Part shown: piece by piece, positions 32,928 through 59,803 of the stretch
How positions within the stretch are numbered: position 1 is the first letter of the stretch
How the letters are laid out: every line of letters starts with the position of its first letter
Source of the DNA: Lysobacter alkalisoli
GTDB taxonomy: Bacteria; Pseudomonadota; Gammaproteobacteria; Xanthomonadales; Xanthomonadaceae
NCBI RefSeq assembly: GCF_006547045.1
Contig: NZ_CP041242.1
Span: 1,188,001-1,252,000 of the forward strand
Direction: 5' to 3'
Length of the DNA: 64,000 nt
Notes under the pieces: generated by a model
What the model was told of the DNA's origin: nothing
The model's input: the letters and a program-made list of their open reading frames with translations, nothing else
Database searches by the model: none
Made by a program: the position numbers and the translations under genes

Positions 32928-33033
32928 GAAGCCTGTAGCCATGGCGTTGCGGGACACGCGTGAACCCGTCCTTGGGGCTCTTCCGCGACATCCATGTCGC
33001 GGACGGTCCCGCAACGCCATGGCCACAGGCTTC
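32928..33033. repeat. Family-1 palindromic element, copy A
   Basis: The 28-bp arms 32928-32955 and 33006-33033 pair with one mismatch. The 50-bp core (reverse orientation) contains the inner hairpin CCGCGACAT/ATGTCGCGG and the conserved tail GAGCCCCAAGGACGGGTTCA. The core is shared with copies B, C and D; the arms differ from theirs. Confidence 0.8.
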
Positions 33034-33126
33034 TGGACATTTGGCTGGCGCAGTGGGACCGAGGTCCCGGGGGCTTGGGTTGGGGTAGGCAATGCGAGTC
33101 CCAACGCCATGAACTGACAATGATGC

Positions 33127-34011
33127 TCAATCGACGGGCTGCGACAACAGCCAGTCGACGAAGCGTCGCGCCGCCGGGCGCAGCCGCCGGTGCGCGGGGT
33201 AGACCACGTAGTAGCCCCAGCGCGCCTGCAGCTCCGGGCCGGGCAGCTGCACCAGCCGCCCGGCTTCGAGATAGGGGGCCACGATGCGCTGGCGTGCCAG
33301 CGCGGCACCATGACCGAACGCGGCTGCATTGAGCGCGTCGGTGGTGTCGCTGAAAGTGTGGCGCTCCTCGATGTGCGCGCCATGCACGTCGGCGGCGCGG
33401 AACCAGTCCAGCCACCCCTGCCGTGCATGGTCGGCGATCAGCGGCATACGGGCGATGTCCGCGGGGGTGGTCACCTTGTCGAGCCCGGGCAAATCGGGGG
33501 CGGCGACCGGGAACAGGGTTTCGTCCATCAGCAGGTGTGCGGTCAGGCCGGGCCAGTGGCCGGGGCCGTGGCGGATGCCGAGGTCGGGGCCGGCATCGTC
33601 GAAACGGGTCAGGGCTACTTCTGTGTCGAGGCTCAGCCGGATGTCGGGGTGCGCGGCGTGCAGGTCGCGCATGCGCGGGATCAGCCAGGTGTAGGTCAGC
33701 GAATGCAGGGTGGTGATGCGGACACGATTGTGCTCGGCGCGCGCCGCGCGAAGACCGCGTACCACGCTGTCGACGTCGGCCAAGGCGCTGCTGGCGGCAT
33801 CGGCCAGCTGGCGTCCCTCGGCGGTCAACGAGACACCGCGCGCGTGGCGCTGGAACAGGGTCACGCCAAGCCGGGATTCGAGTTTGCGCACGTGGTGGCT
33901 GACCGCGCTCGCGGTCAGGTGCAACTCCTCGGCGGCGTGGGTGAAGTTCTGGTGCCGGGCGGCGGATTCGAATGCCGCCAGGGCCGGCAGCAGGTCGGCT
34001 CTCAGGGCCAT
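33127..34011 (-). CDS. LysR-family transcriptional regulator (GcvA-like)
   Basis: A 294-residue regulator. The winged helix-turn-helix is at residues about 5-62 (ALAAFESAARHQNFTHAAEE, then SAVSHHVRKLESRLGVTLFQR), followed by a substrate-binding-like effector domain whose sequence (GIRHGPGHWPGL, then GHGAALARQRIVAPYLEAGRL) is of the GcvA type. It is divergent from an EamA transporter, with 103 bp between them, the usual arrangement of a LysR activator and its target. A start five codons upstream (34026) is also possible. Confidence 0.92.
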   Translation of the reverse strand: MALRADLLPALAAFESAARHQNFTHAAEELHLTASAVSHHVRKLESRLGVTLFQRHARGVSLTAEGRQLADAASSALADVDSVVRGLRAARAEHNRVRITTLHSLTYTWLIPRMRDLHAAHPDIRLSLDTEVALTRFDDAGPDLGIRHGPGHWPGLTAHLLMDETLFPVAAPDLPGLDKVTTPADIARMPLIADHARQGWLDWFRAADVHGAHIEERHTFSDTTDALNAAAFGHGAALARQRIVAPYLEAGRLVQLPGPELQARWGYYVVYPAHRRLRPAARRFVDWLLSQPVD

Positions 34012-34114
34012 GTAAGCCTCAAGCAATGTTTGTGGCTGATTGCGAAAGTATGCGCTTGTGGCACCTGATATGGTGCGGAAAATAGTCTCAAGTCACAAAC
34101 TGGATTCGTCGCTC

Positions 34115-35041
34115 ATGGCTCCCCCTGTCGCCGCTCCTGCCGTCGCCGTATCCCCCGTCGAGTCCGGCGTGCATGGAGCTGGCAGTCGCGCAGGGGACTG
34201 GATCACCCCTGTCGAACTGTGCGTACTGGGTGCGATCTGGGGTGCCTCGTTCCTGTTCATGCGCGTCGCCGCTCCCGACTTCGGTGCCCTCCCGCTGGTC
34301 GAGGTGCGGTTGGCGCTGGGCTCGCTGGTGCTGCTGCCGTTCCTGTGGCGTGCGCGTGCGCAGTTTCCGCTTTCGCTGTGGCCGAAGCTGGCCGGCATCA
34401 GCCTGATCAACTCGGCGATACCGTTCGTGCTGTTCGCGTGGGCTGCACAGCACGCCCCGGCCGGGATCGGTGCGATCACCAATGCGATGACGGTATTGTT
34501 CACCGCGTTGATCGGCTTCCTGTTCTTTGGCGAACGCATTGGTACCCGGCGTGCGGTTGCGCTGTTCGCGGGGTTTGCCGGCGTCGTGGTGCTGGCCAGC
34601 GGCAAGGTCGCCGGGGCCAGCATCGGCCTGGCCGCGACAGCGGGCGCCGCTGCGGCGTTCCTGTACGGAATCGGCATCAATCTGGTGCGCCGTCACCTGA
34701 CCGGTCTGCCGCCGGCCGCGGTTGCTGCCGCGACCCTTGGCTGCGCAGCCCTGCTGGTGGCGCCGCTCGCCATCGCCCGCTGGCCGGCGCAGGAGATCGG
34801 GCTGTTGTCATGGACCTGTGCGGCCCTGCTCGGTGTGCTCTGCACCGGGATCGCGTTCGTCATGTACTACCGCCTGATCGCTCGCGTCGGGGCGAACCGT
34901 GCCTCGACCGTGACCTACCTGGTGCCGGTGTTCGGAGTCGCCTGGGCCTGGTGGCTGCTCGACGAGCCGCTGACCATGACGATGGGCGTCGCCGGCGCGA
35001 TCATCCTGGCCAGCGTGGCCTTCAGCCAGCGAGCGAAGTGA
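34115..35041 (+). CDS. DMT-superfamily (EamA) transporter, probable LysR target
   Basis: A 308-residue inner-membrane protein with about ten helices and two EamA domains (LCVLGAIWGASFLFMRVAAP and GIGINLVRRHLTGLPPAAVA). Export of an amino acid-like or other small metabolite is the usual role. It is only distantly similar to the other DMT gene at 32 kb, so this is not a recent duplication. Start 34115 is preferred; 34070 is an in-frame ATG within the region that should hold the LysR site. The next gene starts 8 bp after its stop, implying cotranscription. Confidence 0.9.
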   Translation: MAPPVAAPAVAVSPVESGVHGAGSRAGDWITPVELCVLGAIWGASFLFMRVAAPDFGALPLVEVRLALGSLVLLPFLWRARAQFPLSLWPKLAGISLINSAIPFVLFAWAAQHAPAGIGAITNAMTVLFTALIGFLFFGERIGTRRAVALFAGFAGVVVLASGKVAGASIGLAATAGAAAAFLYGIGINLVRRHLTGLPPAAVAAATLGCAALLVAPLAIARWPAQEIGLLSWTCAALLGVLCTGIAFVMYYRLIARVGANRASTVTYLVPVFGVAWAWWLLDEPLTMTMGVAGAIILASVAFSQRAK

Positions 35042-35049
35042 TTCCAGAG

Positions 35050-35724
35050 ATGGCCCAGCACCGTGTCGTGTTCGATTTCCAGATCGACTTCAGCAATGGC
35101 GGCGGCCTGAAAGGCCACGACTTCCGCCTCGACATCGACGGCGACGACATCGATGACGCGGGACTTGCCGACTACATCGTCCGCGACATGCGCCTGCTGA
35201 TGGTCGGCGCGGTGCGGATCCTCGACAAACGGATCATTGTCGAGCCGCACAAGCGGCCGCGGATCGCACCGGTCGAGATCGACGCGGAGGCCGAGGCGTT
35301 GCTTGCCTCCGCCGGCCTGCCGACCACGGACCTGGCGCTTTCGCCATTGCGCCTGTTCGGCAGCCGCCGCAACGGCGTGCTGCAGGGTGTCGTGGGCATC
35401 GAGGGCTACGGGAGCGATGCGCTGCTGCGTTCGTTGGCGGTCGCTGCAGATTCGCGCGGGCAGGGCATCGGCCGCGAGCTCGTGGAGCATGTCGAAAGCA
35501 TCGCCCAGGATGCGGGTGTGCGTCGATTGTTCCTGCTGACGACCGATGCAACGGCCTATTTCAACCGGCACGGCTACGTGGAAACGCCGCGTGGGTCCGC
35601 GCCGCCGGCAGTGGTGGCGACGGCGCAGTTCGCCTCGCTGTGCCCGGCCTCGGCAACGCTCATGTCCAAGGCGCTGGTGTTGCCGAAGGACGCGCCGTCC
35701 ATTCCGGCCGACGCCACGTCCTGA
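35050..35724 (+). CDS. Two-domain protein: small N-terminal domain plus ArsN2-like GNAT acetyltransferase
   Basis: A 224-residue protein. Residues about 75-215 are a GNAT domain of the ArsN2 type, with the acetyl-CoA loop LAVAADSRGQGIGRELVEHV and the hallmark end YFNRHGYVETPR then ATAQFASLCPASATLMSK; ArsN2-like proteins acetylate small molecules such as arsenical amino acids. Residues 1 to about 72 (VVFDFQIDFSNGGGLKGHDF and VRDMRLLMVGAVRILDKRII) form a separate compact domain that I know as a free-standing small protein of unknown function. The fusion is intact, with no stop or frameshift at the boundary. It follows an EamA exporter by 8 bp. Confidence 0.8.
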   Translation: MAQHRVVFDFQIDFSNGGGLKGHDFRLDIDGDDIDDAGLADYIVRDMRLLMVGAVRILDKRIIVEPHKRPRIAPVEIDAEAEALLASAGLPTTDLALSPLRLFGSRRNGVLQGVVGIEGYGSDALLRSLAVAADSRGQGIGRELVEHVESIAQDAGVRRLFLLTTDATAYFNRHGYVETPRGSAPPAVVATAQFASLCPASATLMSKALVLPKDAPSIPADATS

Positions 35725-35731
35725 GGTGGGT

Positions 35732-36598
35732 TCAGCCGTCCCGCGAGCCTTCTTCCTGCAGGCAGCGGATCAGGGCGGTCGCGGCGGCAGGGTTGCGTGC
35801 CTTCGCCGCGCTGATGAAATAGATGAACACTTCGCGCGCATGTCCAGCCGGCGCTCGTGGTGTCTCCACATGCGGCAGGTCGTCGGGGTCCCCGCCACGC
35901 GCCCATTGCCGCGCGCGTCGCACCCAGAGCTGCAATGCCTGCTCCGGATAGCCGGTGGTGACCGGGTCCTGCGAACGCATCAGCCGTGCATATACGAACG
36001 GGCCGGTGATGTCGGCCAGCGACGGGTGCTGGTTGGAGTCGGTGAACACGGTGGCGATACCGCGTTCGCGAGCCAGTCGCAGGTAGGCGGGGTCGCGGAA
36101 ACTGTCGTGGCGGACTTCGAGCACATGCCGGAGTGTCCGGCCATCGAGCGTATCCGGCAGCGCATCGAGAAAGGCGGCGAGGTCGTCGCGGTCGAACACG
36201 CGCTGCGGCGAGAGCTGCCACAGGATTGGCCCTAGCCGCTCGCCGAACTCGGCCAGTCCGCCGTCGATGAACGCGCGGGCCTGGCCGCCGGCACGGGCGA
36301 GCGCACCGCCGTGCGTGACGCGCTTGGGCGCTTTGAGCGAGAACATGAAATGCGCTGGCGTTTCCGCCGCCCATCTGGCGTAGGTCGCGGGCTTCTGCGC
36401 GCCGTAGAAGGTGCCGTTGATCTCGATGCTGCTGAGCTGGCGGCTGGCGTATTCCAGCTCACGGCGCTGCACCAGCCCCCTGGGGTAGAAATTGTCGCGC
36501 CACGGGGCGAAGGTCCAGCCGCCGATGCCGACACGGATGCCGTCGATGGCATCGACGCCGGATGTGTCCTCGTCGCCGGGCGCGAACAGGTCGCTCAT
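35732..36598 (-). CDS. DUF72 family protein
   Basis: A 288-residue TIM-barrel-like protein of the DUF72 (YecE) family. Signatures are RVGIGGWTFAPWRDNFYP, SSIEINGTFYG, FMFSLKAPKRVTH, LRHVLEVRHDSF and FVYARLMRS. The function of DUF72 is not known, although structure relates it to nucleases/isomerases with a barrel. The ATG overlaps the stop of the DUF885 gene by one base (TGATG), so translation is probably coupled. It lacks a signal peptide, unlike its upstream partner. Confidence 0.88.
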   Translation of the reverse strand: MSDLFAPGDEDTSGVDAIDGIRVGIGGWTFAPWRDNFYPRGLVQRRELEYASRQLSSIEINGTFYGAQKPATYARWAAETPAHFMFSLKAPKRVTHGGALARAGGQARAFIDGGLAEFGERLGPILWQLSPQRVFDRDDLAAFLDALPDTLDGRTLRHVLEVRHDSFRDPAYLRLARERGIATVFTDSNQHPSLADITGPFVYARLMRSQDPVTTGYPEQALQLWVRRARQWARGGDPDDLPHVETPRAPAGHAREVFIYFISAAKARNPAAATALIRCLQEEGSRDG

Positions 36599-38427
36599 CA
36601 GCGGATCGGTTCGTCCAGCATCAGCTGGCGCACGAACCGCACCGGCGGCGAGCCGTACGAAAGTACCTGGTCGTGGTAGCTCTTTAGGTCGAAGTTCTTG
36701 CTCTCGCGCTGCTCGATCTCGGCGCGCAGGTCCAGGTGCTCGCTGTAGCCGACGTAGTAGGTCGGCAACTGGGCCGAGGTCAGCTGGGCGCGCACCCATT
36801 TGCCGGCGGCCTCGCTCTCCTGCTGGAAGGCGGTCACCGTCATCAGTTTCATCGCCTCTTCGCGGCTCATGTCGTCGACGTGGATGGCCTGGTCGAGCAA
36901 TGCATTGGCCATCGCGCGCAGGTTCCACTTGCGGTTGATCAGCTGCATCAGCGGATCGTTGTCCATGTAGCCGGCGTCGGCCATAACCTTCTCGGCGTAC
37001 ATCGCCCAACCTTCGACGAAGGGGCCGGAATAGAGCACCGCGCGCAGGATCGACGGGTGCTTGTTGGCATGTGCGAGCTGCAGGAAGTGGCCCGGCATCG
37101 CCTCGTGGATGCTCAGTTCGTGGATCGAGCGGGTGTTGTATTCGCGCAGGAACGAATCGACCTGGTCGTCGTTCCAGTCGTCGGGGATCGGCGAGACCGC
37201 GTAGAACGTCTCCAGGCCCTTGTCGAGCGGCCCGGGCGGGTCGCAATAGGCGACCGCGACGCCGCGCTGGAACTCCGGCATCAGGATGATCTTCACCGGC
37301 TCGTCGGGAACGGTGACCAGATCCTTCTCGCGCACGAACGCGGTCGCCTCCTCGGTGCTGCGGGTGGCGAGCTCGACCACCTCTTCGCGCGCCGGGCGGT
37401 CGGCGTAGGCCAGCTCCAGTGCGGCCTCGATCACCGCCTGCTGCTGTTCCGGCGAAGGCCTGTCGGGCATCTTCGCGGGAGCATCGTCCCGATCGCGAAG
37501 CACGCTTCGTGCGATTTCATACATTTCTTCACGAGTACGCCGGATGTCGGCCTCGACCCGACTGCGGATCTCCTGCCGCGACAGCGGCGAGTCGAGCGCG
37601 AAAGCCAGCTTCTCGTCGTACAGCGTTTCGCCGATGCGGAAGTCGCCGCGGGCATCCGGCACCAGGGTTTCGTCCAGCCACTTCTGGTGCTCGTCCACCG
37701 CTTCGCGCAGGACGGCGACGGCGGCGTCGAGCTGCCTGCGCTCCTGCCCCTGCAACAGCCCGGCGTTGGGCAGGATCAGCTCATCGACCAGCGACAGCAC
37801 GCCGGCGTTCTGGCGGGAGACGGTTTCGGCATGGATCTTCGGTACCCGTGCGGAGTCCAGGTTCTGGCGCATCTGCGCGAACAGCGTCGGGATCTGCTGC
37901 ATGCGCGCGGTGGCGGATCTCAGCCGTTCCGGCATCGGCGCGAAATCGCGCGCCATCAGCCCGTACAGGGCGCTGCCGGCAAGCTGGCTGTAAACCTGCG
38001 GATCCCACGCCCAGCTTTGCAGGGTCTCGCTGGTCCAGATGTCGTAGCGCAACTTGTTGCGCAGGATGCGGGCGTCGACTTGGTTCTCGCGCGACAGCGA
38101 CGGGATCTCGATCGCATCGAGTTCCGCCAGCATCTTGCGGTTGAATTCGAGCGCACGATTGCGACCGCCCTGGCTCAGGTCGTCGATATGGCTGTCGAAG
38201 CGATGGTCGCCGACCTGGGTCGCGGCGATCGGCGACAACTCCAGCGACTTGTCCAGCCAGCGTTGGGCCAGGTCGAGGAAGTGGGCATCGGCTTCAGCGG
38301 TGGTCGACGCGCCTGTCGCCACCGCAGGAGTTTCGGGCGCGGCCGGTGGTGATGGCTGGCATGCGGCCAGGACCAGGGCGAACAGGACCGATGGGATCAG
38401 GGCAGGCGGGATCAGGGCTGGGCGCAT
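36598..38427 (-). CDS. DUF885 family lipoprotein, probable metallopeptidase-like
   Basis: A 609-residue protein with a lipoprotein signal (lipobox LVLAAC, Cys23), so it faces the periplasm or outer membrane. The DUF885 domain spans most of the rest, with the zinc-protease-like motif LSIHEAMPGHFLQL near residue 460, AVSPIPDDW, and VEGWAMYAEKVM. DUF885 proteins resemble M32/oligopeptidase folds and are thought to be peptidases; activity for this one is inferred. It is the upstream gene of a coupled pair with DUF72. Confidence 0.88.
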   Translation of the reverse strand: MRPALIPPALIPSVLFALVLAACQPSPPAAPETPAVATGASTTAEADAHFLDLAQRWLDKSLELSPIAATQVGDHRFDSHIDDLSQGGRNRALEFNRKMLAELDAIEIPSLSRENQVDARILRNKLRYDIWTSETLQSWAWDPQVYSQLAGSALYGLMARDFAPMPERLRSATARMQQIPTLFAQMRQNLDSARVPKIHAETVSRQNAGVLSLVDELILPNAGLLQGQERRQLDAAVAVLREAVDEHQKWLDETLVPDARGDFRIGETLYDEKLAFALDSPLSRQEIRSRVEADIRRTREEMYEIARSVLRDRDDAPAKMPDRPSPEQQQAVIEAALELAYADRPAREEVVELATRSTEEATAFVREKDLVTVPDEPVKIILMPEFQRGVAVAYCDPPGPLDKGLETFYAVSPIPDDWNDDQVDSFLREYNTRSIHELSIHEAMPGHFLQLAHANKHPSILRAVLYSGPFVEGWAMYAEKVMADAGYMDNDPLMQLINRKWNLRAMANALLDQAIHVDDMSREEAMKLMTVTAFQQESEAAGKWVRAQLTSAQLPTYYVGYSEHLDLRAEIEQRESKNFDLKSYHDQVLSYGSPPVRFVRQLMLDEPIR

Positions 38428-38557
38428 GGCGGGCTCCGGCAGGGGCGCGAATGGCAAGCATAACCGCGGCGGGCGCGATCGCCACTGCACGCGCCGGGTG
38501 TGCCGTTGGCTGCTGCCCGATCCCACCGCGGATCCCGGCCGCTGCGCCGGGTTCTGA

Positions 38558-38830
38558 CCGTGCTCGCCCGGCTGGCACCGCTTGCAGCAGGGAGACGACA
38601 GCTGGGCATTCTTCGTGCGCACTCCGGACGATGCCCCCGGCCGGCGTGCGATGGAACTGCGCGAGGCCACCCTGAAGTTGGCCGGCGATGCCGCACGCAC
38701 GCCGACGTGGGTCGATGCATCCGCTGCACCGCGTCGCGGACCGTCCTGGCCGTGGCTCATCGCGTGGCTCGCGTCGATCGCCGTCCTGTGGTGGCTGGAA
38801 CGTTGGCGCCGGGGAGTGGGGCTCGCCTGA
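38558..38830 (+). pseudogene. C-terminal remnant of a membrane-anchored protein
   Basis: An open frame with no convincing start (a stop lies at 38555-38557, and the first possible starts are TTG or an internal ATG). It encodes GWHRLQQGDDSWAFFVRTP, a linker, and a C-terminal helix WPWLIAWLASIAVLWWLERW with positive residues after it. This looks like the tail of a larger periplasmic-domain protein anchored at its C-terminus. Another frame just upstream (RPLRRVLTVLARLA, from about 38545) seems to be its continuation, so both a frameshift and 5' loss are likely. No other gene is seen in 38428-38864. The family is not identified. Confidence 0.4.
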
Positions 38831-38864
38831 GCGCGATGGCCGGGGATAAGCGGATGCTCCCGGC

Positions 38865-39161
38865 TCAGCGCTCCTCTTCGACCTCGAACTCCACCATCAC
38901 CTCAAGTTCGAACGCCAGTTGCTCCACCGCGCGGCGGAGCCGGTTGGCCGAGTACGCGTTGGACACTTCCACTTCCAGTTCGTGGACGCCCGGCCCCTGG
39001 TCGTCGGGCAGCCCGGCAGAGCTCGAATCGGCATCGTCCATGTGCGACATCAGGTCGGCGACTTCCTCGATGTGATCCACGCCTTCCAGACTGGACAGCA
39101 GGTTGGCGATCGCTCGGGCGCTGTCCTCGTCGCCGGTGACGCGCATTCGCAACAGGGGCAT
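38865..39161 (-). CDS. Small acidic hypothetical protein
   Basis: A 98-residue cytosolic protein, strongly acidic at its end (VMVEFEVEEER). The N-terminus MPLLRMRVTGDEDSARAIAN and ELEVEVSNAYSANRLRRAVE suggest a small alpha/beta fold with two ferredoxin-like strands. I do not recognise a named family, though the sequence has the look of a conserved protein rather than noise: the frame is free of stops and ends cleanly. A standalone gene between the remnant at 38.6 kb and the DUF2867 gene. Confidence 0.65.
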   Translation of the reverse strand: MPLLRMRVTGDEDSARAIANLLSSLEGVDHIEEVADLMSHMDDADSSSAGLPDDQGPGVHELEVEVSNAYSANRLRRAVEQLAFELEVMVEFEVEEER

Positions 39162-39239
39162 GGCAGAACTCCGGGGGCTGGCCTGCGCTCAGGCTAGGCG
39201 GCGAATGGCTAAGTGCGCGTGATGGCCGGAACGGACGAT

Positions 39240-40655
39240 TCAGGCGGGTAGCTGCGCGCCAGTCTCCGCTCCTGCCGGGACCGGCAGCGCATGCATGACG
39301 GCCATCCTCAACATCGCCGGTGAAATGTAGTGCCTGTGAACGCCGTTGATCAGCGCCATGTACAAGCGCCCGAACAGGTTCCGGCAGCGGACCCGGGTGC
39401 CCAGTGAGACGTGGATGCGGCCATCGTCGCCGATCTCCACGCCGACACACGAGCGGAATACCAGATGCCGGTCGTCCGCACCGAGAATGACCTGCGCGCG
39501 ACGACCGTCGAGGTCCATGCGCTGGGCAAGTACCGGAAACCGGCCCACGAACAGTTGTGTGCGGTCGTTCGACAGCAGGGACGATGCGGGGCATCCCAGC
39601 GGCGAGGTGCGCAGGCGCAGGGGGCGCACAAGAATATTGCGCAGCCGCATCAGTCCGGTCACGCCTGCCGGACGGTTGGTTAGGAAGCCTTCGAGCACGC
39701 GCGCGAGCAGGTCGGTGGCGCCTGCCGATGGGGCAGGGACCCCATCCACGGCCAGCGTGAAGGTGTCATCGTGATCGAAACGTTCCGTCAATTGCCCGGC
39801 AAGCAGCGAATCGCCCGGAGCATGCGCGAGATGGGTGACGAGATGCCGATGTGGCAGCCGGGCGAGAAATCCGGTCGAGCGCCGCCAGCCGGCTGCCATG
39901 CGCCGAACCATGCCGATGCCACACCTGACAGTGGCGCACATGCGGTCGTGCCAGCTGCCGGAAGGTGCATGCAAGGACAGGCGAACGGTCGGAATTGTGC
40001 CGGCCTGCGGCGGATGAGCGGCAAGATGGTCTGCAACCCGGTCGGGAAGCAGCTCGGTCAGGCACGGGATGTCCGCACCGCCTGCGATCACGCGTTCGCG
40101 CACGATCGGATCGTCGATGCCGCCGAGTTCGTCGGTATGGCAGGAAAGTGCGAACAGCGTCGGGTGCAGGCCGTTCTCACGCAGCGGCGCGAACTGGTGC
40201 CAGGTGCCGCCACCGAAGCGGACGGTGAACATCGCATCGGGCGGGATGTCGACCTGGCGCAGCGTGCGCGCGAAATTCGACGGATCCGAATGGAGGTCCC
40301 GGTCATCGATGGTCGAAAAGCGCAGCCGCGCGCCACCGCTGCCGGCTATGGCGGTGAAGATGCGATGACCTGCATGACGATGGAATGGATGCCCCTTGCC
40401 GTCGACAGCGAACGAGTACAGCGAGGTGGCGTCGCCTTTGCCGAGATCGGTTCCGGCGAGCTTCGCCGAGGGCTCGTCCAGCGCGTCGACGAAAGTATCG
40501 TGCCTGCGCTGGCGTGCACTCGCGTCGGCGAACAACCGGTTGCCGGCACCGTGCCCGAGCTGGGTGATCAGAGAGACCTCGACGGGCAGACCGCCATGCC
40601 TGGCGGGAATGCGGACCGTCGGGAATCCTTCGATGTGACTTGCTTGCGCTGGCAT
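39240..40655 (-). CDS. Cupin-like domain fused to DUF2867
   Basis: A 471-residue protein of two parts. Residues about 30-240 contain a cupin-like beta-barrel (VDGKGHPFHRHAGHRIF, with metal-ligand-type His residues, and VRFGGGTWHQFAP as second motif). Residues about 315-460 are DUF2867 (VTGLMRLRNILVRPLRL, then ADDRHLVFRSCVGVEI and RLYMALINGVHRHYI). No signal peptide. The fusion joins a likely small-molecule-binding barrel to a lipid/ligand-binding-like domain; function unknown. It is 48 bp downstream of an ArsR-type regulator on the same strand and probably under its control. Confidence 0.75.
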   Translation of the reverse strand: MPAQASHIEGFPTVRIPARHGGLPVEVSLITQLGHGAGNRLFADASARQRRHDTFVDALDEPSAKLAGTDLGKGDATSLYSFAVDGKGHPFHRHAGHRIFTAIAGSGGARLRFSTIDDRDLHSDPSNFARTLRQVDIPPDAMFTVRFGGGTWHQFAPLRENGLHPTLFALSCHTDELGGIDDPIVRERVIAGGADIPCLTELLPDRVADHLAAHPPQAGTIPTVRLSLHAPSGSWHDRMCATVRCGIGMVRRMAAGWRRSTGFLARLPHRHLVTHLAHAPGDSLLAGQLTERFDHDDTFTLAVDGVPAPSAGATDLLARVLEGFLTNRPAGVTGLMRLRNILVRPLRLRTSPLGCPASSLLSNDRTQLFVGRFPVLAQRMDLDGRRAQVILGADDRHLVFRSCVGVEIGDDGRIHVSLGTRVRCRNLFGRLYMALINGVHRHYISPAMLRMAVMHALPVPAGAETGAQLPA

Positions 40656-45219: not shown

Positions 45220-45342
45220 GGATTGCAGTCTCCGGTCGACGTGCCGCGCGAATGCTTCGGCGCAGGCGGGTCTGTTGCGTTGCAGCATACCTGATCGGGA
45301 TTGCGGGAGGGTTAACGGGCTTGTTTCTCGGGTTCGCGGGGC

Positions 45343-45446
45343 CGCAGGCGGATACGGGTGTGCAGGACACGCCGCAAGTACGTCCGTGTAGGCTCATCCG
45401 CGGCATCCATGCCGCGGAAGGTCCTGCAAACCCATATCCGCCTGCG
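45343..45446. repeat. Family-1 palindromic element, copy D
   Basis: The 26-bp arms 45343-45368 and 45421-45446 pair with two mismatches. The 52-bp core (reverse orientation) has the inner hairpin CCGCGGCAT/ATGCCGCGG, which differs from the other copies but remains paired, and the conserved GATGAGCC block. The rest of 45220-45483 shows no gene. Confidence 0.75.
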
Positions 45447-45483
45447 TCTGGACAGTGAGCCGGCGGTTTCGGAGAAGCCCGAT

Positions 45484-46094: not shown

Positions 46095-46113
46095 GTGGTT
46101 GCATTCCTGCTGT

Positions 46114-46308
46114 CATCCCAAGCCCTGTGAGGGGCTGCTTTCCGACGGACCATCCAGACGCGAGCGGACACGGCATTGCAGGACCTTCCGCAACATGGAT
46201 GTTGCGGATGAGCCCCCATGGACGGGTTCACGGCGTGTCCTGCAATGCCGTGTCCGCTCGCGTCCCCATGGACAGACTCAAAGCAGCCCCCTCACAGGGC
46301 TTGGGATG
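46114..46308. repeat. Family-1 palindromic element, copy B, inside a larger nested palindrome
   Basis: Inner arms 46157-46184 and 46237-46264 are perfect 28-bp complements around a 52-bp core with the hairpin CCGCAACAT/ATGTTGCGG. A second outer arm pair (46114-46141 and 46280-46308, one extra C) encloses it with 15-bp spacers, so the full foldback is about 195 bp. Confidence 0.8.
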
Positions 46309-46342
46309 TCATTTTCATGGATAGCACGGCATCCTAGTGCAC

Positions 46343-46793: not shown

Positions 46794-46868
46794 GTAGCCC
46801 GGGTAAGCGGAGCGCACCCGGGATCCGCTGCGTCAAATCCCCGGGTGCGCTCCGCTTACCCGGGCTAC
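46794..46868. repeat. GTAG-type REP doublet
   Basis: Two inverted 29-bp units (GTAGCCCGGGTAAGCGGAGC and its complement), 46794-46822 and 46840-46868, separated by 17 bp. This is the REP/SMAG-like arrangement common in Pseudomonas and Stenotrophomonas. It ends 3 bp from the alkaline phosphatase stop codon and so may end transcripts from both sides. No RAYT transposase is in the window. Confidence 0.85.
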
Positions 46869-50478: not shown

Positions 50479-50668
50479 ACATTTGGTTCTTCGCCCGATC
50501 TCGGGGAAAGCGCCGGGTCTGTTGGATGACCGGGGCGCCGGGGGACATTCGCCGTCAAGGCCGGCAGGTCGCTTCGGGACAGCCAGGTAGCGACGAAACC
50601 CGGCGATCGAACGCAAGCGGCAGCGTCCATGCCTTTGAAGGCGAGTTCCCCCTCACCTGGGAGAAGAA
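50479..50668. repeat. Composite repeat, compact copy (inverse of the 27.5-27.9 kb repeat)
   Basis: Reverse complement of the flanks found at 27467-27597 and 27831-27884, but here joined directly through GCCGGGGGACATTCGCCGTC. No second core or large insert is present. The 50382-50685 gap holds no gene; apart from this repeat I see nothing in it. Confidence 0.7.
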
Positions 50669-50685
50669 CCAAGCATTTCCGTGGT

Positions 50686-53367: not shown

Positions 53368-54087
53368 TCAGATGCCTTCGACTTCGACCCGTCGTGCCTG
53401 CATGAAGCGGTTGCTCCAGTAGCCGCTGTCGAGGCGGGACACGCTCACCGACTTGCCGCGACTGGGGGCATGCACGAAACGGCCTTCACCGAGGTAGATG
53501 CCGACATGGTCGACACGGCCCCGGCGGCCGAAGAACACCAGGTCGCCGGCGGCCATCTCTTTGCGATTCTTGACGGCCTGGCCGTTACGGGCCTGATCGC
53601 GGGAAACGCGTGGCAGCTCGATGCCAAGTGCATGGCTGAAAACGTACTTGACCAGACCGCTGCAATCGAAGCCGCGCTCGGGGCTGGTGCCTCCCCAGCG
53701 GTACGGCGTGCCGAGCAGGGCAAGGGCCTTCTGCAGCACGGTGCGGGTGGGGCTTTCGTTCTTTCCGTCCAGCGTCTGTTCGGGCTCATCGGCCTCTTCG
53801 TCGGCCATATCGGTGGCGAGCAGGCGGTTGAGATCGGTGGCCAGCAGCAGGGCCCGGTCGGACATGCCCATCGCCTCAGGCAGCATCGGGCGGGTGATCG
53901 CCGAAGGCAGGTCGGCCGAATCGGCCGCCAACGAGGACATGGGCAGCTGCTGCGCCAGCACCGGTGCCGCCAGCAGGGCCAGCAGGGCGGTCAGGAAGAG
54001 GCGGGTAAGGGGCCGCGTGAGGCGGTGGGCGAACTGGCCGGGGCGGGCGATGGGGCCGGGGCCATGTCGAGGTACGTCGGATTTCAC
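53368..54087 (-). CDS. C40/NlpC-P60 peptidoglycan endopeptidase (larger)
   Basis: A 239-residue exported protein with a signal segment (about residues 25-45, LFLTALLALLAAPVLAQQ) after an unusually long, basic N-terminus. Catalytic residues are in YRWGGTSPERGFDCSGLVKY (Cys) and DHVGIYLGEGRFVHAPS (His). It cuts peptide stems in the cell wall. A variable acidic linker (about 90-110) precedes the domain. It shares the domain and orientation with the next NlpC/P60 gene; the region upstream is AT-rich (54088-54215). Confidence 0.9.
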   Translation of the reverse strand: MKSDVPRHGPGPIARPGQFAHRLTRPLTRLFLTALLALLAAPVLAQQLPMSSLAADSADLPSAITRPMLPEAMGMSDRALLLATDLNRLLATDMADEEADEPEQTLDGKNESPTRTVLQKALALLGTPYRWGGTSPERGFDCSGLVKYVFSHALGIELPRVSRDQARNGQAVKNRKEMAAGDLVFFGRRGRVDHVGIYLGEGRFVHAPSRGKSVSVSRLDSGYWSNRFMQARRVEVEGI

Positions 54088-54215
54088 GCGGCGATCACTA
54101 AGTTGCGACCGCGCGATAATGCCTGTCCGTCACAACTTGAATGTTTACTATTCGTTAAATAATAGTTAATTTAATGGATGAGCGTCACGTTTCCTGCGGT
54201 CTGGCCTTTTTCCAG

Positions 54216-54788
54216 TCATTGCAGCACACGCCTGGCACCGGAGTAATGGCTGCGCCAGTAGTTGCCATCTAGATGGTCGAGCCGGACCGTGCCGCCGGTG
54301 CTCGGCGCATGCACGAAGCGACCTTCACCGACGTAAATGCCGACATGGGTGACTTTGCCGCGGCTGCCGAAAAACACCAGGTCGCCGGCCGTCAGCTTCG
54401 ACGGCGCGATCTTTGGCCCCTGGTAGCCGGCCAGCTGGCTGGCAGTACGCGGCAGGCGCAGGTCCAGCATGTCGCGGTAGACGTAGTTGACCAGCCCGCT
54501 GCAATCGAAGCCGCCTTCGGGCGTGTTGCCGCCATAGCGATACGGCGTGCCGACCAGGCTGATCGCCCGCATCAGCACGGCGTTGGCGGCGGCCGGGTCG
54601 GAAGGGGGCACCACGGCCCAGGTCCGGGTGGAGTCGGCGGGTACCGGCGCACGCGTGCGCTTGCTGCCACAGCCGGCGAGCAGGCCCATGCACAGCACGG
54701 AAGCCAGCAGCACGGCGACGGGGAAAGGGCGGCGCGTACTCGCTGGCGCCGGATCGATGTTGCCGGGATAATGCGCGGTCCTGTCCAC
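54216..54788 (-). CDS. C40/NlpC-P60 peptidoglycan endopeptidase (lipoprotein)
   Basis: A 190-residue lipoprotein: a hydrophobic signal VAVLLASVLCMGLLAGC (lipobox LLAGC) leads to a proline-rich linker and the NlpC/P60 domain, with Cys in YRYGGNTPEGGFDCSGLVNY and His in THVGIYVGEGRFVHAPS. The start is uncertain: GTG 54788 gives a sensible lipoprotein but lacks a clear ribosome site, and other candidates lie up to 43 codons upstream in the slyD promoter region. Its domain resembles the neighbour's, so the pair is probably an old tandem duplication. Confidence 0.82.
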   Translation of the reverse strand: MDRTAHYPGNIDPAPASTRRPFPVAVLLASVLCMGLLAGCGSKRTRAPVPADSTRTWAVVPPSDPAAANAVLMRAISLVGTPYRYGGNTPEGGFDCSGLVNYVYRDMLDLRLPRTASQLAGYQGPKIAPSKLTAGDLVFFGSRGKVTHVGIYVGEGRFVHAPSTGGTVRLDHLDGNYWRSHYSGARRVLQ

Positions 54789-54946
54789 GGGCCATAGCTT
54801 GGCTGCTGGACGGCGTGGCGACAAGTTTCGCTGCAACAATCCACCCACCCCGTGCTGCTGATGGCAACTGCTGCCGATGGCAAGCCGGGCATCCATTTCA
54901 TTCCGGTCCGCCGCCATGCGGTGGCCATGCCAGAGTCGCCATTGCC

Positions 54947-55426
54947 ATGAAGATCGAGAAAGACCGCGTCGTCCACTTCCACTACACCGTTTCCGAGCAG
55001 GGCCAGGAGCCGCTGGAAAGTTCGGAGGGGCGCGATCCGCTGGTGATCCTGATCGGCCACAACAACATCATCCCGGGCCTGGAGCAGGCGATGGACGGCC
55101 GTGAAGCCGGCGACAAGTTCGAGGTCGACGTGTCTGCCGCCGACGCCTACGGCGAGATCAAGGAAGGCCTGACCCAGCGGGTGCCGAAGAAATACTTCAA
55201 GGGCCAGAAGATCGCCCCGGGCATGCAGGCGATCCTGCAGACCAACTTCGGCCCGCGTGCGGTAACCGTTTCCAAGGTCGGCATGAGCGTGGTCGACGTC
55301 GACCTCAACCACCCGATGGCGGGCAAGGACCTGCACTTCGCGGTCGAAATCGTCGACGTGCGTGAGGCGAGCGCCGAGGAGATCGAGCACGGCCACGTGC
55401 ACGGCGAGGGCGGCGTGGAGCACTGA
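54947..55426 (+). CDS. slyD: SlyD-type FKBP peptidyl-prolyl isomerase
   Basis: A 159-residue cytosolic FKBP: VVHFHYTVSEQGQEPLESSE, LIGHNNIIPGLEQAMDGREA, the inserted-in-flap chaperone domain with AYGEIKEGLTQRVPKKYF, and a short His-rich tail (EHGHVHGEGGVEH) instead of the long metal-binding tail of E. coli SlyD. It helps proline-limited folding and may bind nickel weakly. The start ATG 54947 gives the family N-terminus; upstream open frame is the divergent lipoprotein's region. A terminator follows at 55453. Confidence 0.92.
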   Translation: MKIEKDRVVHFHYTVSEQGQEPLESSEGRDPLVILIGHNNIIPGLEQAMDGREAGDKFEVDVSAADAYGEIKEGLTQRVPKKYFKGQKIAPGMQAILQTNFGPRAVTVSKVGMSVVDVDLNHPMAGKDLHFAVEIVDVREASAEEIEHGHVHGEGGVEH

Positions 55427-55452
55427 CCGGCACTCGAACTGATGATCGGAAA

Positions 55453-55481
55453 CGGCCCGCTTCGAGCGGGCCGCTTCTTTT
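55453..55481 (+). terminator. Intrinsic terminator of slyD
   Basis: CGGCCCGC-TTCGA-GCGGGCCG followed by CTTCTTTT. An 8-bp perfect stem and a near-T tract, 26 bp after the stop codon. Confidence 0.9.
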
Positions 55482-55526
55482 GGTTCTTCTCTTGATGGTT
55501 CTGTTGCCAGGAGCGGGGCGTCCAGT

Positions 55527-55556
55527 GGAAGCCTGTGGCCGCGGCGATGCGGGATC
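55527..55556. repeat. Solo left arm of a family-1 palindrome
   Basis: GGAAGCCTGTGGCCGCGGCG and the next ten bases match the left arm of copy A (32928-32955) at about 23 of 28 positions, but no core or right arm follows. Confidence 0.45.
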
Positions 55557-55662
55557 CCATGCCGGACGCTGCCTGTGCCCGAAGCTGCCTCCCCGGCAGG
55601 CCGGATAACCGCCTCTCCCGCATACACTTCCCGCTCATTCGATAATTTACGGGCAGGGGGAA

Positions 55663-56928
55663 ATGGAAGCAGGACTGAAAATGGGGGCGCCGCCACAACA
55701 AAGAATGCTGCAACCCACCGGCGCAAACGAACGTCTGGGGTCGCTGGACGTCCTGCGTGGCTTTGCCCTGTTCGGCATTGCGTTGATGAACGTCGAGTTC
55801 TTCACCTCGCCGCTGGTCGCGCGGGGCGACGGCATCGATCCGGCGGCCAGCGGCCTCGACTGGCTGGCCGACGCCTTCGTCTACGTGTTCGTCACCGGCA
55901 AGTTCTGGGCGCTGTTCGCGCTGCTGTTCGGGATGGGGTTCGCGGTAATGCAGCAGCGGGCGGAAGCGGCCGGGCGGCCATTCGCGCCGGTCTACCTGCG
56001 CCGCAGCCTGGGCCTGCTGGCGATCGGGTTCGGCCATGCCTGGCTGCTCTGGGCCGGCGACATCCTGCTCGCCTATTCGTTGGCAGCGCTGTTGTTGCTG
56101 GCCTGCTTCGCCCGCGCGCCGACGCGTGGTCTGTGGGCCTGGGGAGGCGGCCTGTACTACGGCATCGTCGGGATGGTGGCGGCTTCGGCATTGCTGCTGG
56201 GTGCGATGGAGGCACTGGGGGTGGCGATGGACGAGCAGGTCGTGGACGCCGGCAGGTTGGCGTTCCGTGAGGAAGAAATCGCCACCTACAGCGCTGGCAG
56301 TTATGCGGCTGCGACAGCGTTCCGCTTGCGTTTCCTGCTGGATGTGTTTGGCGAAATGCTGTTTTTCCTGCCGATGGCGCTGGGGGTGTTCGCATTCGGC
56401 GCCTGGCTGGTGCGCTGCGGGGTGATGGCCGATCCGGAGGCGCACCGGCGGTTGTTTCGCGGGTTTGCTTTCATCGCCTGGCCGACGGGGTTGATGCTGA
56501 CGCTGATTTCGGTGGCGATCGATCCTGCGCCCGACCTGTTGTCCGAAGCGCTGGCCCGGCCGATGTGGGCATCGACGTTGCAGATGGCGGGGGCGCCGCT
56601 GATGATGCTCGGCTACTTCGGGGCGTTCATGTTGTTCCTGCAGCGCGGGGCACGCTGGCCCGGCGTGCTGGCGCCGGCAGGGCGCATGGCGCTGACCCTG
56701 TACCTGATGCAGTCGGTCATCGGGACACTGGTGTTCTACGGCTACGGTCTGGGCCTGTGGGGACAGGTCGGCCGCACAACGCAGATACTTGGCGTGGTCG
56801 TGGTCTTCGCCGTGCAGGTAGCGTTGGCCCATGCATGGATGGCACGCTTCCGCTTCGGGCCGGTCGAGTGGCTGTGGCGTGGCCTGACCTACCTGCGACT
56901 GCCGCCGATGTGGCGACAGCCCAACTGA
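55663..56928 (+). CDS. DUF418 family membrane protein
   Basis: A 421-residue inner-membrane protein with about nine hydrophobic helices. The opening ERLGSLDVLRGFALFGIALM is the DUF418/acyltransferase-3-like start, and the DUF418 block is at the C-terminus (LAPAGRMALTLYLMQSVIGT, FRFGPVEWLWRGLTY). The function of DUF418 proteins is unknown; some are linked to acyl modification of surface molecules because of the shared N-terminal helices. Good GGGGGA ribosome site before ATG 55663. Confidence 0.88.
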   Translation: MEAGLKMGAPPQQRMLQPTGANERLGSLDVLRGFALFGIALMNVEFFTSPLVARGDGIDPAASGLDWLADAFVYVFVTGKFWALFALLFGMGFAVMQQRAEAAGRPFAPVYLRRSLGLLAIGFGHAWLLWAGDILLAYSLAALLLLACFARAPTRGLWAWGGGLYYGIVGMVAASALLLGAMEALGVAMDEQVVDAGRLAFREEEIATYSAGSYAAATAFRLRFLLDVFGEMLFFLPMALGVFAFGAWLVRCGVMADPEAHRRLFRGFAFIAWPTGLMLTLISVAIDPAPDLLSEALARPMWASTLQMAGAPLMMLGYFGAFMLFLQRGARWPGVLAPAGRMALTLYLMQSVIGTLVFYGYGLGLWGQVGRTTQILGVVVVFAVQVALAHAWMARFRFGPVEWLWRGLTYLRLPPMWRQPN

Positions 56929-56940
56929 GTTCTCCTCTGC

Positions 56941-58200
56941 ATGGCACAACACGAAGACGTGGTGATCGTGGGCGCGGGCGTGATCGGCCTGGCCTCGGCG
57001 TTGGCGTTGCTCGAATCCGGGCGCGGAGTGAAGGTGATCGACGCCGGACGCATCGGTGGCGGCACCTCGCATGGCAACTGCGGCACCATCACCCCCAGCC
57101 ATGCGCCCCCGCTGGCCGCACCCGGCATGGTGGCCACCGCGATCAGGTGGATGTTCACCCCGGATGCACCGTTGTACGTCAAGCCCCGCTTCGACCCCAC
57201 CCTGTGGCGTTGGATGCTGCATTTCGCCGCGCGCTGCAACGAGCGCGACTGGCGTGCCAGCGCGATCGCCAAGGGGGCGCTGCTGAACGATTCGAGGACC
57301 CGCCTGGAAGAATGGACGGACCGTTTCGGGTTGCAGTGCGAGTTCCGGGCCTCGGGCGAGGACTACGTGTTCCGCGACCCGCGCGAGCTGGAACATGGCC
57401 TTAAGGAAGTCGCGCTGTTGCGCGAGCTCGGGGTGCCGGTCGAGGTCGTCGACGGTGCCGCCTACGAGGCAATGGAGCCGGCGCTCAAGCCCGGCGTGGC
57501 CGGCGCGATCCGCTTCGACGGCGATGCCTCGTTGCGCCCGGATCGCTATGTCGCCGAGCTGGCCCGGGCGGTGCGTGAGCGCGGCGGAGTGATCGTCGAG
57601 CATTGTGACGTGACGGCGGTCGATGCCGCCGCGTCCGGCTTGCGCGTCGATACCGTGCAGGGGCGGCTGCAGGCGCGTGATGTGGTGCTCGCGATCGGCG
57701 CCTGGTCGCCGCAGCGTGCCGATGCATTCGGCGTGCCGGTGCTGAAGCGGGTGCTGCAGCCGGGCAAGGGGTATTCGATCACCTACAGCCGGCCTGCACT
57801 CGTACCAAGGCGCCCGCTGGTGCTTCACGAGCGCTCGGTCTGCGTGACGGTATGGGAGCAGGGTTTCCGTCTCGGCAGCACCATGGAGTTTTCCGGCCAC
57901 GACACCACCCTCAACCCGCGCCGGCTGGCCGCGCTGGAAAAAGGCGCGGCGGAGTACCTGCACGAACCGGTTGGCCCGGAAGTCGTCGAGCGCTGGTACG
58001 GCTGGCGTCCGATGAGTCGCGATGATGTGCCGGTGATCGGTGCGGTGCCCGGCCGCGCCGGCCTGTGGGTCGCTACCGGCCACGGCATGATGGGGGTGAG
58101 CATGAGTGCCGGTACCGGCCAGCTGCTGGCCGATCTGATGATGCAGCGGACACCGGCGGTCGACCCGGTGCCGTTCCGGATGGAACGCTTCGTCCGCTGA
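56941..58200 (+). CDS. DadA-like D-amino acid dehydrogenase/FAD-dependent oxidoreductase
   Basis: A 419-residue DAO-family flavoenzyme: VVIVGAGVIGLASALALLES (FAD-binding), ISTAGTCSHGNC-type loop seen here as RIGGGTSHGNCGTITPSHAP, and the end RPMSRDDVPVIGAV then GHGMMGVSMSAGTGQLLADL. It resembles DadA, which oxidises D-amino acids at the inner membrane, but DadA-like proteins also include hydroxyproline dehydrogenases, so the substrate is open. It starts 12 bp after DUF418 and is on the same strand as gor. Confidence 0.88.
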   Translation: MAQHEDVVIVGAGVIGLASALALLESGRGVKVIDAGRIGGGTSHGNCGTITPSHAPPLAAPGMVATAIRWMFTPDAPLYVKPRFDPTLWRWMLHFAARCNERDWRASAIAKGALLNDSRTRLEEWTDRFGLQCEFRASGEDYVFRDPRELEHGLKEVALLRELGVPVEVVDGAAYEAMEPALKPGVAGAIRFDGDASLRPDRYVAELARAVRERGGVIVEHCDVTAVDAAASGLRVDTVQGRLQARDVVLAIGAWSPQRADAFGVPVLKRVLQPGKGYSITYSRPALVPRRPLVLHERSVCVTVWEQGFRLGSTMEFSGHDTTLNPRRLAALEKGAAEYLHEPVGPEVVERWYGWRPMSRDDVPVIGAVPGRAGLWVATGHGMMGVSMSAGTGQLLADLMMQRTPAVDPVPFRMERFVR

Positions 58201-58265
58201 TGCGGGTACACGAGGCAATCCCGGGCTGGTAGAAAGTAGGTCGACCCCATGCCCGCGAGGCCGCC

Positions 58266-59660
58266 GTGTCCCAGCCCTCTGCCGCCACCTCCTGTGCCAT
58301 TGGTGACTTCGACCTGATCGTGATCGGTGGAGGCTCAGGTGGCCTGGCCGGCGCCTTCCGTGCCGCCGAACATGGTGCTCGTGTCGCCCTGCTGGAACCG
58401 TCTGCACTGGGGGGCACCTGCGTCAACGCGGGATGCGTGCCGAAGAAGGCGATGTGGCTGGCGGCCGAGGCCGGTCGCCGGCTGGGCATGGCGGAGGCGT
58501 TGGGTTTCCCGATGCCGGCCCGCCCGCTCGACTGGCCGGCCTTCATTACCCACCGCGAGCGCTACATCCACAACATCCACCAGAGCTACCGGCGACGCCT
58601 GGACGCGGCCGGTATCGTGCATGTCGTCAGTCGCGGACGTCTGGTCGCACGCGATGCATCCGGCAGGAGCGTGGTCGAATGCGACGACGGCCTGCGCATG
58701 CAGGCGCCGCGGCTCCTGATCGCGACCGGTGGGCATGCGCTGCGTCCCGACATCCCGGGAAGCGGACTGGGGAGCGTGTCGGACGACTTCTTCCAATGGC
58801 GTGCAGCGCCGGAGCGGGTGGCGATCGTCGGAGGTGGCTACATAGGAGTGGAGCTGGCCGGTGTGCTGCAGCAGCTCGGCAGCCATGTCGACATGCTGGT
58901 GCGTGGGGAACGGTTGCTGCGCGGCTTCGACGGGGTGGTTACCGACCAGCTGGCCGACGACTACCGCCTGTCCGGCGTGCGGCTGCACTTCGGCCGCGAG
59001 GCTGTGGAGGTGGCAAAGGCCGAAGGCGGCCTGCGCGTGCGGGATGGCAACGGCGACTGGCATGGGCCGTATGACAAGGTGCTGTTTGCCACGGGGCGCG
59101 CCCCGAACACGGCCGGACTTGGACTGGAGACGGCGGGCTTGGCCACCGATGCAGGCGGTCACATCAAGGTCGATGCAGGCCATGCAACGAATGTCCCGGG
59201 CATCTACGCGGTCGGCGACGTGACGTCCGGCCTTGCGTTGACCCCGGTCGCGATCGCCGCCGCACGCCGTCTGATGTCCCACCTGTTTGGCGGCGCCCCC
59301 GATCCCACGCTCGACCAGACCGATGTGCCGACCGTGGTGTTCTCGCATCCGCCACTTGCCACCGTCGGCCTGACCGAGGCGCAGGCCCGAGAACGCCACG
59401 GCGACGACGTGCACGTGTACACAGCCGCTTTCCGGCCGATGCTGGAAGCGCTGGTCGACGGTTCGCAACGCAGCCTGTTCAAGCTGGTCTGCGTCGGCGA
59501 CGAACGCCGCGTGATCGGCCTGCATCTGCTCGGCGACTCCGCCGACGAGATCCTGCAGGGCTTCGCGGTCGCGCTGAAAAAGGGTGTCACCCTGCAGGAC
59601 CTGCAGGACACCGTCGCGATCCACCCGACCAGTGCGGAAGAGGTCGTCTTGATGCGGTAA
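58266..59660 (+). CDS. gor: Glutathione-disulfide reductase
   Basis: A 464-residue homodimeric FAD/NADPH enzyme that reduces glutathione disulphide. It has the FAD motif LIVIGGGSGGLAGAFRAA, the redox-active disulphide GGTCVNAGCVPKK, the NADPH-binding GGGYIGVELAGVLQQLG, and the C-terminal catalytic HPTSAEE. These favour glutathione reductase over dihydrolipoyl dehydrogenase. The start is GTG 58266. No transcription factor gene is beside it. Confidence 0.9.
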   Translation: MSQPSAATSCAIGDFDLIVIGGGSGGLAGAFRAAEHGARVALLEPSALGGTCVNAGCVPKKAMWLAAEAGRRLGMAEALGFPMPARPLDWPAFITHRERYIHNIHQSYRRRLDAAGIVHVVSRGRLVARDASGRSVVECDDGLRMQAPRLLIATGGHALRPDIPGSGLGSVSDDFFQWRAAPERVAIVGGGYIGVELAGVLQQLGSHVDMLVRGERLLRGFDGVVTDQLADDYRLSGVRLHFGREAVEVAKAEGGLRVRDGNGDWHGPYDKVLFATGRAPNTAGLGLETAGLATDAGGHIKVDAGHATNVPGIYAVGDVTSGLALTPVAIAAARRLMSHLFGGAPDPTLDQTDVPTVVFSHPPLATVGLTEAQARERHGDDVHVYTAAFRPMLEALVDGSQRSLFKLVCVGDERRVIGLHLLGDSADEILQGFAVALKKGVTLQDLQDTVAIHPTSAEEVVLMR

Positions 59661-59693
59661 GCCAGCTTCTTCCCGTGTCCCAGCAGACTTTCC

Positions 59694-59803
59694 GGAAGCC
59701 GGTGGCCGTGGGTTTGCGTGACCTTCCGCAACATGGATGTTGCGGAAGAGCCCCCATGGACGGGTTCACGGCGTGTCACGCAAACCCATGGCCATCGGCT
59801 TCC
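59694..59803. repeat. Family-1 palindromic element, copy C
   Basis: The 29-bp arms 59694-59722 and 59775-59803 pair with two mismatches, both G-T type on the plus strand. The 52-bp core has the hairpin CCGCAACAT/ATGTTGCGG and then GAAGAGCCCCCATGGACGGG. Located between gor and hutG. Confidence 0.8.

Follow-up and report, generated by a model that had tools for sequence, protein, structure and literature searches.

The question raised by this locus is how several hairpins of one bacterial chromosome retain their self-complementarity when the letters of their arms differ from hairpin to hairpin. The window examined in this study is a stretch of 64,000 nucleotides of Lysobacter alkalisoli (contig NZ_CP041242.1, positions 1,188,001 to 1,252,000), and window positions are counted from its first letter. 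An earlier note on this DNA had described four such hairpins, designated here copies A, D, B and C. We observed that they are four of 61 confident copies (with two weaker ones besides) of a repeat family in the L. alkalisoli genome, that their pairing is maintained for one strand only, and that each copy displays two neighbouring GGA loops. The best-supported explanation, which we consider probable, is an interspersed RNA-type repeat with paired sites for the regulator CsrA/RsmA. The strand asymmetry, the rule governing the loops and the outer stem of some copies are additions to what the earlier note had reported.

Copies, folding and strand asymmetry of the repeat family

The search covered the single contig of 3,857,091 bases (the 3.86-Mb L. 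alkalisoli genome) that contains the window. BLAST with copy C as query, keeping places with at least 58 of 84 bases matching, gave 40 places, and copy D was not among these. A covariance model, R1, was made from an alignment of 40 L. alkalisoli copies (A1), from which locus L040 was excluded, and it returned 118 matches at E≤1, including antisense rows of the same places. Sixty-one places scored at least 83 bits on one strand and were taken as confident copies, two weaker places reached 44.2 and 35.9 bits, and two more stayed below 25 bits. R1 located all four hairpins of the earlier note, two on each strand (Table 1), and their places were confirmed, with the correction that at least copy B is longer, its outer arms making it a 201-bp palindrome with a fold of -147.8 kcal/mol (z -17.7).

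Table 1. Copies of the repeat in the window and the parts of copy B.
Feature	Position	Strand	Description
Copy A	32928..33033	-	R1 111.7 bits; P1 stem and two capping hairpins
Copy D	45341..45448	-	R1 108.7 bits; structure as A; P4 of TAC/GTA type
Copy B	46157..46264	+	R1 125.9 bits; P1 perfectly paired
Copy B with outer stem	46111..46311	+	Outer arms, internal loop, then P1; inverted repeats
P2 terminal loop of B	46195..46200	+	AUGGAU, first ANGGAY loop
P4 terminal loop of B	46218..46223	+	AUGGAC, second ANGGAY loop
Copy C	59695..59802	+	R1 123.4 bits; structure as A

Read in the orientation TTCCG..CATGGATG..CGGA(A/T)GAGCC, the element consists of a stem P1 of about 28 bp, a hairpin P2 with the loop AUGGAU, and a GCC/GGC stem P3 enclosing the hairpin P4, whose loop is ANGGAY. 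The inner stem covaries as the earlier note had claimed, and the CCATGGACGGG unit is moreover a small covarying hairpin in its own right (CCC..GGG, TAC..GTA, TCC..GGA), nested in the GCC/GGC stem. P3 is shortened by one base per side in 5 of the 40 copies, namely copy A, a short variant, and four others. Some copies extend outward; one class of these has arms like GTCATCCCGAGCGCAGCGAGGGATCTGCTTT, as in copy B, and a second class, by eye, apparently has GGTTCTTCTCCC / GGGAGAAGAACC farther out. The window also holds, at 55527-55554, an isolated stretch of 28 bases resembling copy A's left arm at 86%, with no other part of the element.

The arms had been said to match within each copy with zero to two mismatches, and this was indeed observed, with one mismatch in A, two in D, none in B and two in C, all of them G-U except one of the two in D. 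Over 40 copies, 99.2% of the cells at paired positions are paired and both sides change at 30 of 43 pairs, and none of 500 shuffles attained either of these values, which bears out the covariation noticed before. When the partner is slid by 1-3 columns, the paired cells fall to 34-41%. The arms diverge at 34% of positions between copies as against 3.2% within a copy, and in the genome-wide set they are neither unpaired nor identical in all copies. It is thus the pairing and not the sequence that is conserved, as had been proposed.

Furthermore, the mismatches that do occur in P1 are unevenly composed. The 40 L. alkalisoli copies, counted without L040 because its arms were misplaced, harbor 25 G-U, 1 A-C and 4 other mismatches, and the bias appears for copies on both chromosome strands (11 G-U and 1 A-C on plus, 14 and 0 on minus). 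Elements of other genomes gave 149 G-U, 12 A-C and 61 others; the 170 elements selected by pattern were reduced to these 136 by leaving out those with fewer than 18 of 22 paired positions or lacking flank. The binomial p for G-U against A-C in the 136 elements is 3e-31, a value that overstates the certainty as the copies are related. A control repeat of the GTAG type from L. alkalisoli, with 13 copies too small a set to show a bias either way, had 2 G-U, 3 A-C and 3 others. Because each G-U becomes an A-C when the opposite strand is read, a strand-blind process would not yield G-U so far above A-C, and therefore one strand folds as RNA (or as single-stranded DNA). The suggestion that the element acts in single-stranded form is strengthened accordingly.

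The two GGA loops and their known relatives

GGA was detected in both loops in all 63 aligned L. alkalisoli rows (61 distinct). The P2 loop reads ATGGAT in 55 of them and is a five-base AGGAY in six, and in the P4 loop the second letter varies freely (T in 44 rows, G in 11, A in 6 and C in 2). The search pattern itself demands GGA, which makes the pattern-selected elements of other genomes unusable for statements on the loops; these statements consequently rest on the L. alkalisoli rows, on copies from one Xanthomonas genome (G059) and on copies found by the model. The model-found copies of five other genomes, chosen by a score that favours the usual letters, retain the first GGA in 41 of 41 and both GGAs in 36 of 41. 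Their rows were drawn from 94 loci, where the alignment retained 150 of 177 matches and 42 rows were used, one antisense row being left out and two intact copies being read by eye; one match set was kept to an E of 1e-14. The 86 copies of G059, likewise chosen by score and taken from stretches around about 40 top-scoring places of that genome, depart from their subfamily consensus 60 times in the four N/Y columns and twice in the eight A/GGA columns; 77 more departures fall outside the loops, in linker and junction columns. All 13 unpaired changes on tree edges with 1-2 differences fell at the N or Y of P4.

According to the pertinent parts of PMC3791407 and PMC7652899, CsrA recognises ANGGAN loops, with a SELEX sequence of RUACARGGAUGU, and bridges two sites lying 10-63 nt apart. 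The repeat has ANGGA hairpin loops of this kind at both positions in 63 of 63 rows, and the two GGAs of copy B are 23 nt apart from start to start. Since N and Y are free beside a fixed A and GGA, the loop pattern fits the CsrA/RsmA rule.

The earlier note knew of no named family with this behaviour, a statement that has to be withdrawn, as the layout is that of the Rfam family RF01731, TwoAYGGAY. Two adjacent AYGGAY hairpins in a long closing stem are present in copy B and in all 40 copies of A1, the second loop letter not always being Y. With cmscan, RF01731 aligned to copy B on the plus strand over model positions 1-168 of 168 at 35.5 bits, the curated cut-off being 43, and to copy A at 28.4 bits. 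In the L. alkalisoli genome it marked nine places at E≤1, two of them above the cut-off (46 and 44.1 bits), a score passed by 2 of the 61 copies and by none in the window; it marked none in 14 control genomes. The family is filed as a relative or variant of TwoAYGGAY, not as a plain member, because copies A and B, like 18 element-bearing loci of other genomes, score below the 43-bit cut-off.

Both share the long stem capped by two adjacent AYGGAY-type hairpins on the same strand and an occurrence in gammaproteobacteria, as far as the TwoAYGGAY entry of PMC2864571 describes it, a table row of 2010. The loops of the present family are wider (ANGGAY, some AGGAY), and its dozens to more than 100 dispersed copies per genome set it apart from the published accounts of TwoAYGGAY in the parts considered here. 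Among these, PMC4333381 proposes CsrA binding, PMC11701678 lists a structure update, and a 2025 preprint (PMC11661157) calls the motif "relatively unexplored". A literature search by the core letters and by TwoAYGGAY terms, covering titles and the starts of abstracts, gave no report of high-copy repeats.

The sponge RNAs CsrB/CsrC and RsmX/Y/Z likewise carry A-N-GGA in hairpin loops. They are single genes with many sites apiece, whereas here there are two sites per unit and many units, and their Rfam models gave no match in the window at the gathering threshold. Compared by description, RsmU of Xanthomonas is also similar, being a GGA-motif RNA from an intergenic or 3' region that is proposed to sequester RsmA; it differs as a single locus with three or four GGA motifs, for which the passages of PMC7694677 concerned report no Rfam homologue. 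Other Rfam matches were set aside, those below cut-off (miRNAs, Ysr224) as chance matches to long hairpins, and the match of RF02598 (modelled on an RNA of Epstein-Barr virus), which at 43.7 bits passes its cut-off of 41.8 at 2115-2185 of locus L015, as chance too; it lies on another palindrome and not on the element.

Placement, distribution and rival explanations

Gene contexts were derived from a home-made gene finder, not from annotation, with the element (E) read in plus orientation. None of the 63 L. alkalisoli copies lies inside a gene, and their contexts are +E+ in 26, +E- in 17, -E- in 12 and -E+ in 8. Elsewhere, 111 copies classed in 120 loci gave +E+ 36, +E- 34, -E- 35 and -E+ 6, and additionally 11 copies stood at edges and one inside a gene. 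Divergent gaps thus account for 6 of the 111 copies compared with 100 of 447 background gaps of at least 60 nt, so that the elements avoid divergent promoter gaps. A comparison of neighbours gave no recurring partner gene beyond apparent orthologous loci; one neighbour family recurring in six loci is, read by eye, presumably acyl-CoA dehydrogenase.

The distribution of the family is patchy. Matches were obtained in 8 of 39 relatives, and the core pattern occurred in at least 120 stretches of named genomes; the 80 matches listed include Xanthomonas, Stenotrophomonas, Marinobacter, Shewanella, Alteromonas, Microbulbifer, Cellvibrio, Halopseudomonas, Oceanisphaera and others, all read as Gammaproteobacteria from their titles, one being labelled Pseudomonadota only. 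R1 gave from 8 to at least 150 matches, both strands counted, in each of 24 pattern-matched genomes, and an even draw from the class under stricter filters gave matches in 26 of 142 other gammaproteobacterial genomes. At the orthologous gaps of same-genus relatives, the element was absent in 15 of 15 cases (A, B and C in G001-G004, D in G001, G003 and G004), with the qualification that the left anchor at C in G001 is poor (33 of 70 bases) and that some gaps hold unrelated sequence. R1 was silent at these gaps; over the 16 loci it gave a single weak match of 24.4 bits, some 3 kb away from the A site. The mobility suspected earlier is supported by the patchy distribution and the empty sites, while neither a mobilizing gene nor a target-site duplication was found, the flanks of occupied and empty sites of A-D being too diverged for the latter to be read. 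As for the features of classical miniature inverted-repeat transposable elements, outer stems occur in some copies, no partner gene was seen, and a duplication is unreadable in the diverged flanks.

A few single loci deserve mention. Two contigs of putative phage DNA in IMG/VR carry the pattern (L202 at 1593-1697; L203 at 10628-10727 and 13019-13126), and in the Xanthomonas loci L133, L147, L114 and L149 two element types form arrays in which the orientation alternates, at spacings of about 100-350 nt. Locus L110 (1294-1401, called Alteromonas) and L176 (near 4680) share the same two flanking gene families, and their elements are opposite in orientation relative to the genes with differing P1 arms; either insertion happened there more than once or an element was inverted in place.

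The change of the arms was followed between closely related copies. Nearest-neighbour pairs of L. alkalisoli show 192 both-side, 45 one-side, 22 broken and 128 unpaired changes; double transversions make up 108 of the both-side ones. Tree edges with at most 4 differences in this genome gave 5, 2, 1 and 2 in the same order, and the young G059 edges with 1-2 differences gave 3, 23, 7 and 13. Six tree edges show no difference other than a single base pair, altered in both of its bases; on three of them the change is a double transversion (L057/L058 in L. alkalisoli; L243/L244 and L252/L253 in G059), which is hardly expected at one pair from slow stepwise compensation. These near-identical copies support the earlier idea that one arm is re-copied from the other by template switching, a process that PMC8794818, in the part concerned, describes as maintaining RNA hairpins, and the both-side changes as apparent single events resemble it. 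Such arm-from-arm rewriting probably adds to the covariation, and selection may be supplemented by template switching or by conversion from copy to copy. The predominance of one-side G-U changes in the young Xanthomonas set argues that selection acts on the pairing as well.

Whether template switching alone would suffice, self-complementarity being then a mutational by-product of replication with no role as RNA, can be judged from the same data. The six single-pair edges with their three double transversions and the 192 both-side against 45 one-side changes speak for it, but it predicts neither a one-strand excess of G-U over A-C whichever chromosome strand a copy lies on nor the loop rule, and one-side changes outnumber both-side ones 23 to 3 on the young Xanthomonas edges. 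As a mutational process, as far as PMC8794818 treats it, and not an element, it leaves the strand bias and the loop rule unaccounted for when taken alone, and as the sole cause we regard it as very improbable. A repeat of the REP/BIME type moved by a RAYT transposase would share the high copy number, the intergenic palindromes, the inverted pairs and the alternating arrays in Xanthomonas (compare PMC2817692 and PMC3733652, as far as these describe REPs). However, REPs are palindromes of 20-40 bp with a GTRG head, in contrast to the 108 to about 200 bp of this family, in which that head is absent from A1. The RAYT gene of L. alkalisoli (2272942) has no copy of the repeat flanking it, the nearest being some 35 kb away, G004 has elements without a Y1_Tnp match, and element-free genomes also have Y1_Tnp. 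Mobilization by RAYT was rejected on the grounds of the gene's flanks and of head and length, and a REP/BIME origin is scarcely credible.

A cis-regulatory leader, with each copy controlling the gene just downstream on its strand, is suggested by the window itself, where each of the four copies stands ahead of the start of a gene on its own strand, at distances of 30, 45, 78 and 121 nt (30 nt for copy A), and by the Cis-reg type given to TwoAYGGAY in Rfam. Beyond the window, a same-strand gene comes next downstream in only 34 of 63 L. alkalisoli copies and 42 of 111 elsewhere, the divergent gaps in which promoters lie are avoided as counted above, and no gene family recurs alongside except in apparently orthologous loci. 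As a general rule the leader is largely refuted, and we hold it to be quite improbable. More weight is due to a selfish, non-autonomous mobile element, of which some transposase or reverse transcriptase would recognise the single strand, DNA or RNA, once folded to show its two GGA loops, so that structure would be selected only at each round of copying and CsrA would have no part. The patchy distribution and empty sites, the near-identical young copies, the Xanthomonas arrays and the avoidance of divergent gaps accord with it, as does a one-strand bias that is alike in both contexts: G-U to A-C is 14:0 in L. alkalisoli and 35:2 in other genomes for sense copies, and 6:1 and 32:4 for antisense copies, six L. 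alkalisoli copies with a differing first loop and two weak ones being left aside. Against it stand the lack of a recurring partner gene, the unlinked RAYT, and the failure of two queries (copy B with flanks and a Xanthomonas pair) to match any of 50,697 phage and 72,556 plasmid records. Moreover, the freedom of N and Y beside the fixed A and GGA is the CsrA rule, for which a transposase offers no obvious reason. We therefore rate this explanation as unlikely, though worth keeping in view.

Three other repeats were noticed in the window. At 46794-46868 an inverted repeat of 29 bp, GTAGCCCGGGTAAGCGGAGCGCACCCGGG, pairs perfectly and resembles a REP with a GTAG head; 13 REP-like copies were seen in the L. 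alkalisoli DNA examined. The stretch 50482-50673 belongs to a different repeat family, for which BLAST showed some 30 or more additional places in the genome, and 53409-53558 and 54248-54397 are direct repeats of 150 nt, 73% alike, perhaps belonging to related neighbouring genes.

The CsrA/RsmA interpretation

Under the explanation that we favour, each element would be an RNA structure of the TwoAYGGAY kind, multiplied along the chromosome into an interspersed repeat. In the folded strand, P1 would present two neighbouring A-N-GGA-Y hairpins whose 23-nt spacing lies within the bridging range, such that one CsrA/RsmA dimer could bridge both loops. A transcribed copy would then bind CsrA/RsmA; with many copies expressed it would serve as a decoy, or it would be a local docking site on the transcript of which it is part. 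The covariation between copies would result from selection on pairing, probably aided by the rewriting of one arm from the other in single events. CsrA as the ligand, the transcription of the copies and a net titration effect are what we infer from the sequences.

The L. alkalisoli genome has one csrA, and in a first set of 30 element genomes csrA was present throughout. Of the genomes in the class draw, 23 of 26 with the element and 44 of 54 without it have a csrA (20 of 20 and 40 of 48 at completeness of at least 90%), a co-occurrence that is consistent but weak. Xanthomonas G059, with at least 150 matches, has two extra csrA-like genes on the non-chromosomal contigs C4 and C5.

Several observations weigh against the CsrA/RsmA interpretation. 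No csrA was detected in 3 of the 26 element genomes, all below 90% completeness, and one of these (G131, 88%) has 15 matches. The P4 GGA is lost in 5 of the 41 model-found copies of other genomes, and in PMC7694677, in the part concerned, an RsmA-binding RNA of Xanthomonas was still bound after its four predicted GGAs had been replaced, so that counting GGAs is by itself no proof. At the gathering threshold RF01731 matches nothing in the window, and at its cut-off none of 18 element-bearing loci of other genomes. The element is lacking in four of six same-genus genomes (G002, G003, G005 and G006, as against G001 and G004), and the family is therefore dispensable. Lastly, there is no general preference for the sense orientation (+E+ 36 against -E- 35 elsewhere, L. 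alkalisoli copies leaning to sense with 26 against 12), and antisense copies are preserved as well as sense ones; read-through transcription is therefore not what keeps the copies.

A wider form of the idea, which we put forward as a tentative possibility, is a spreadable CsrA/RsmA sponge of genome-wide extent, in which dozens to more than 100 copies, their arms rewritten in concert, would jointly set the level of free regulator and replace RNAs of the CsrB/RsmZ type in lineages such as Xanthomonas. According to the relevant section of PMC7694677, BLAST found no homologue of CsrB, CsrC or RsmV/W/X/Y/Z in Xanthomonas, and the family may offer candidate decoys there. High-copy relatives of TwoAYGGAY also provide dozens to more than 100 natural variants per genome, enough for a sequence-only test of CsrA recognition, which the loop rule passes. 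If the interpretation is true, interspersed repeats, which are usually studied as DNA, would be tied to global post-transcriptional control.

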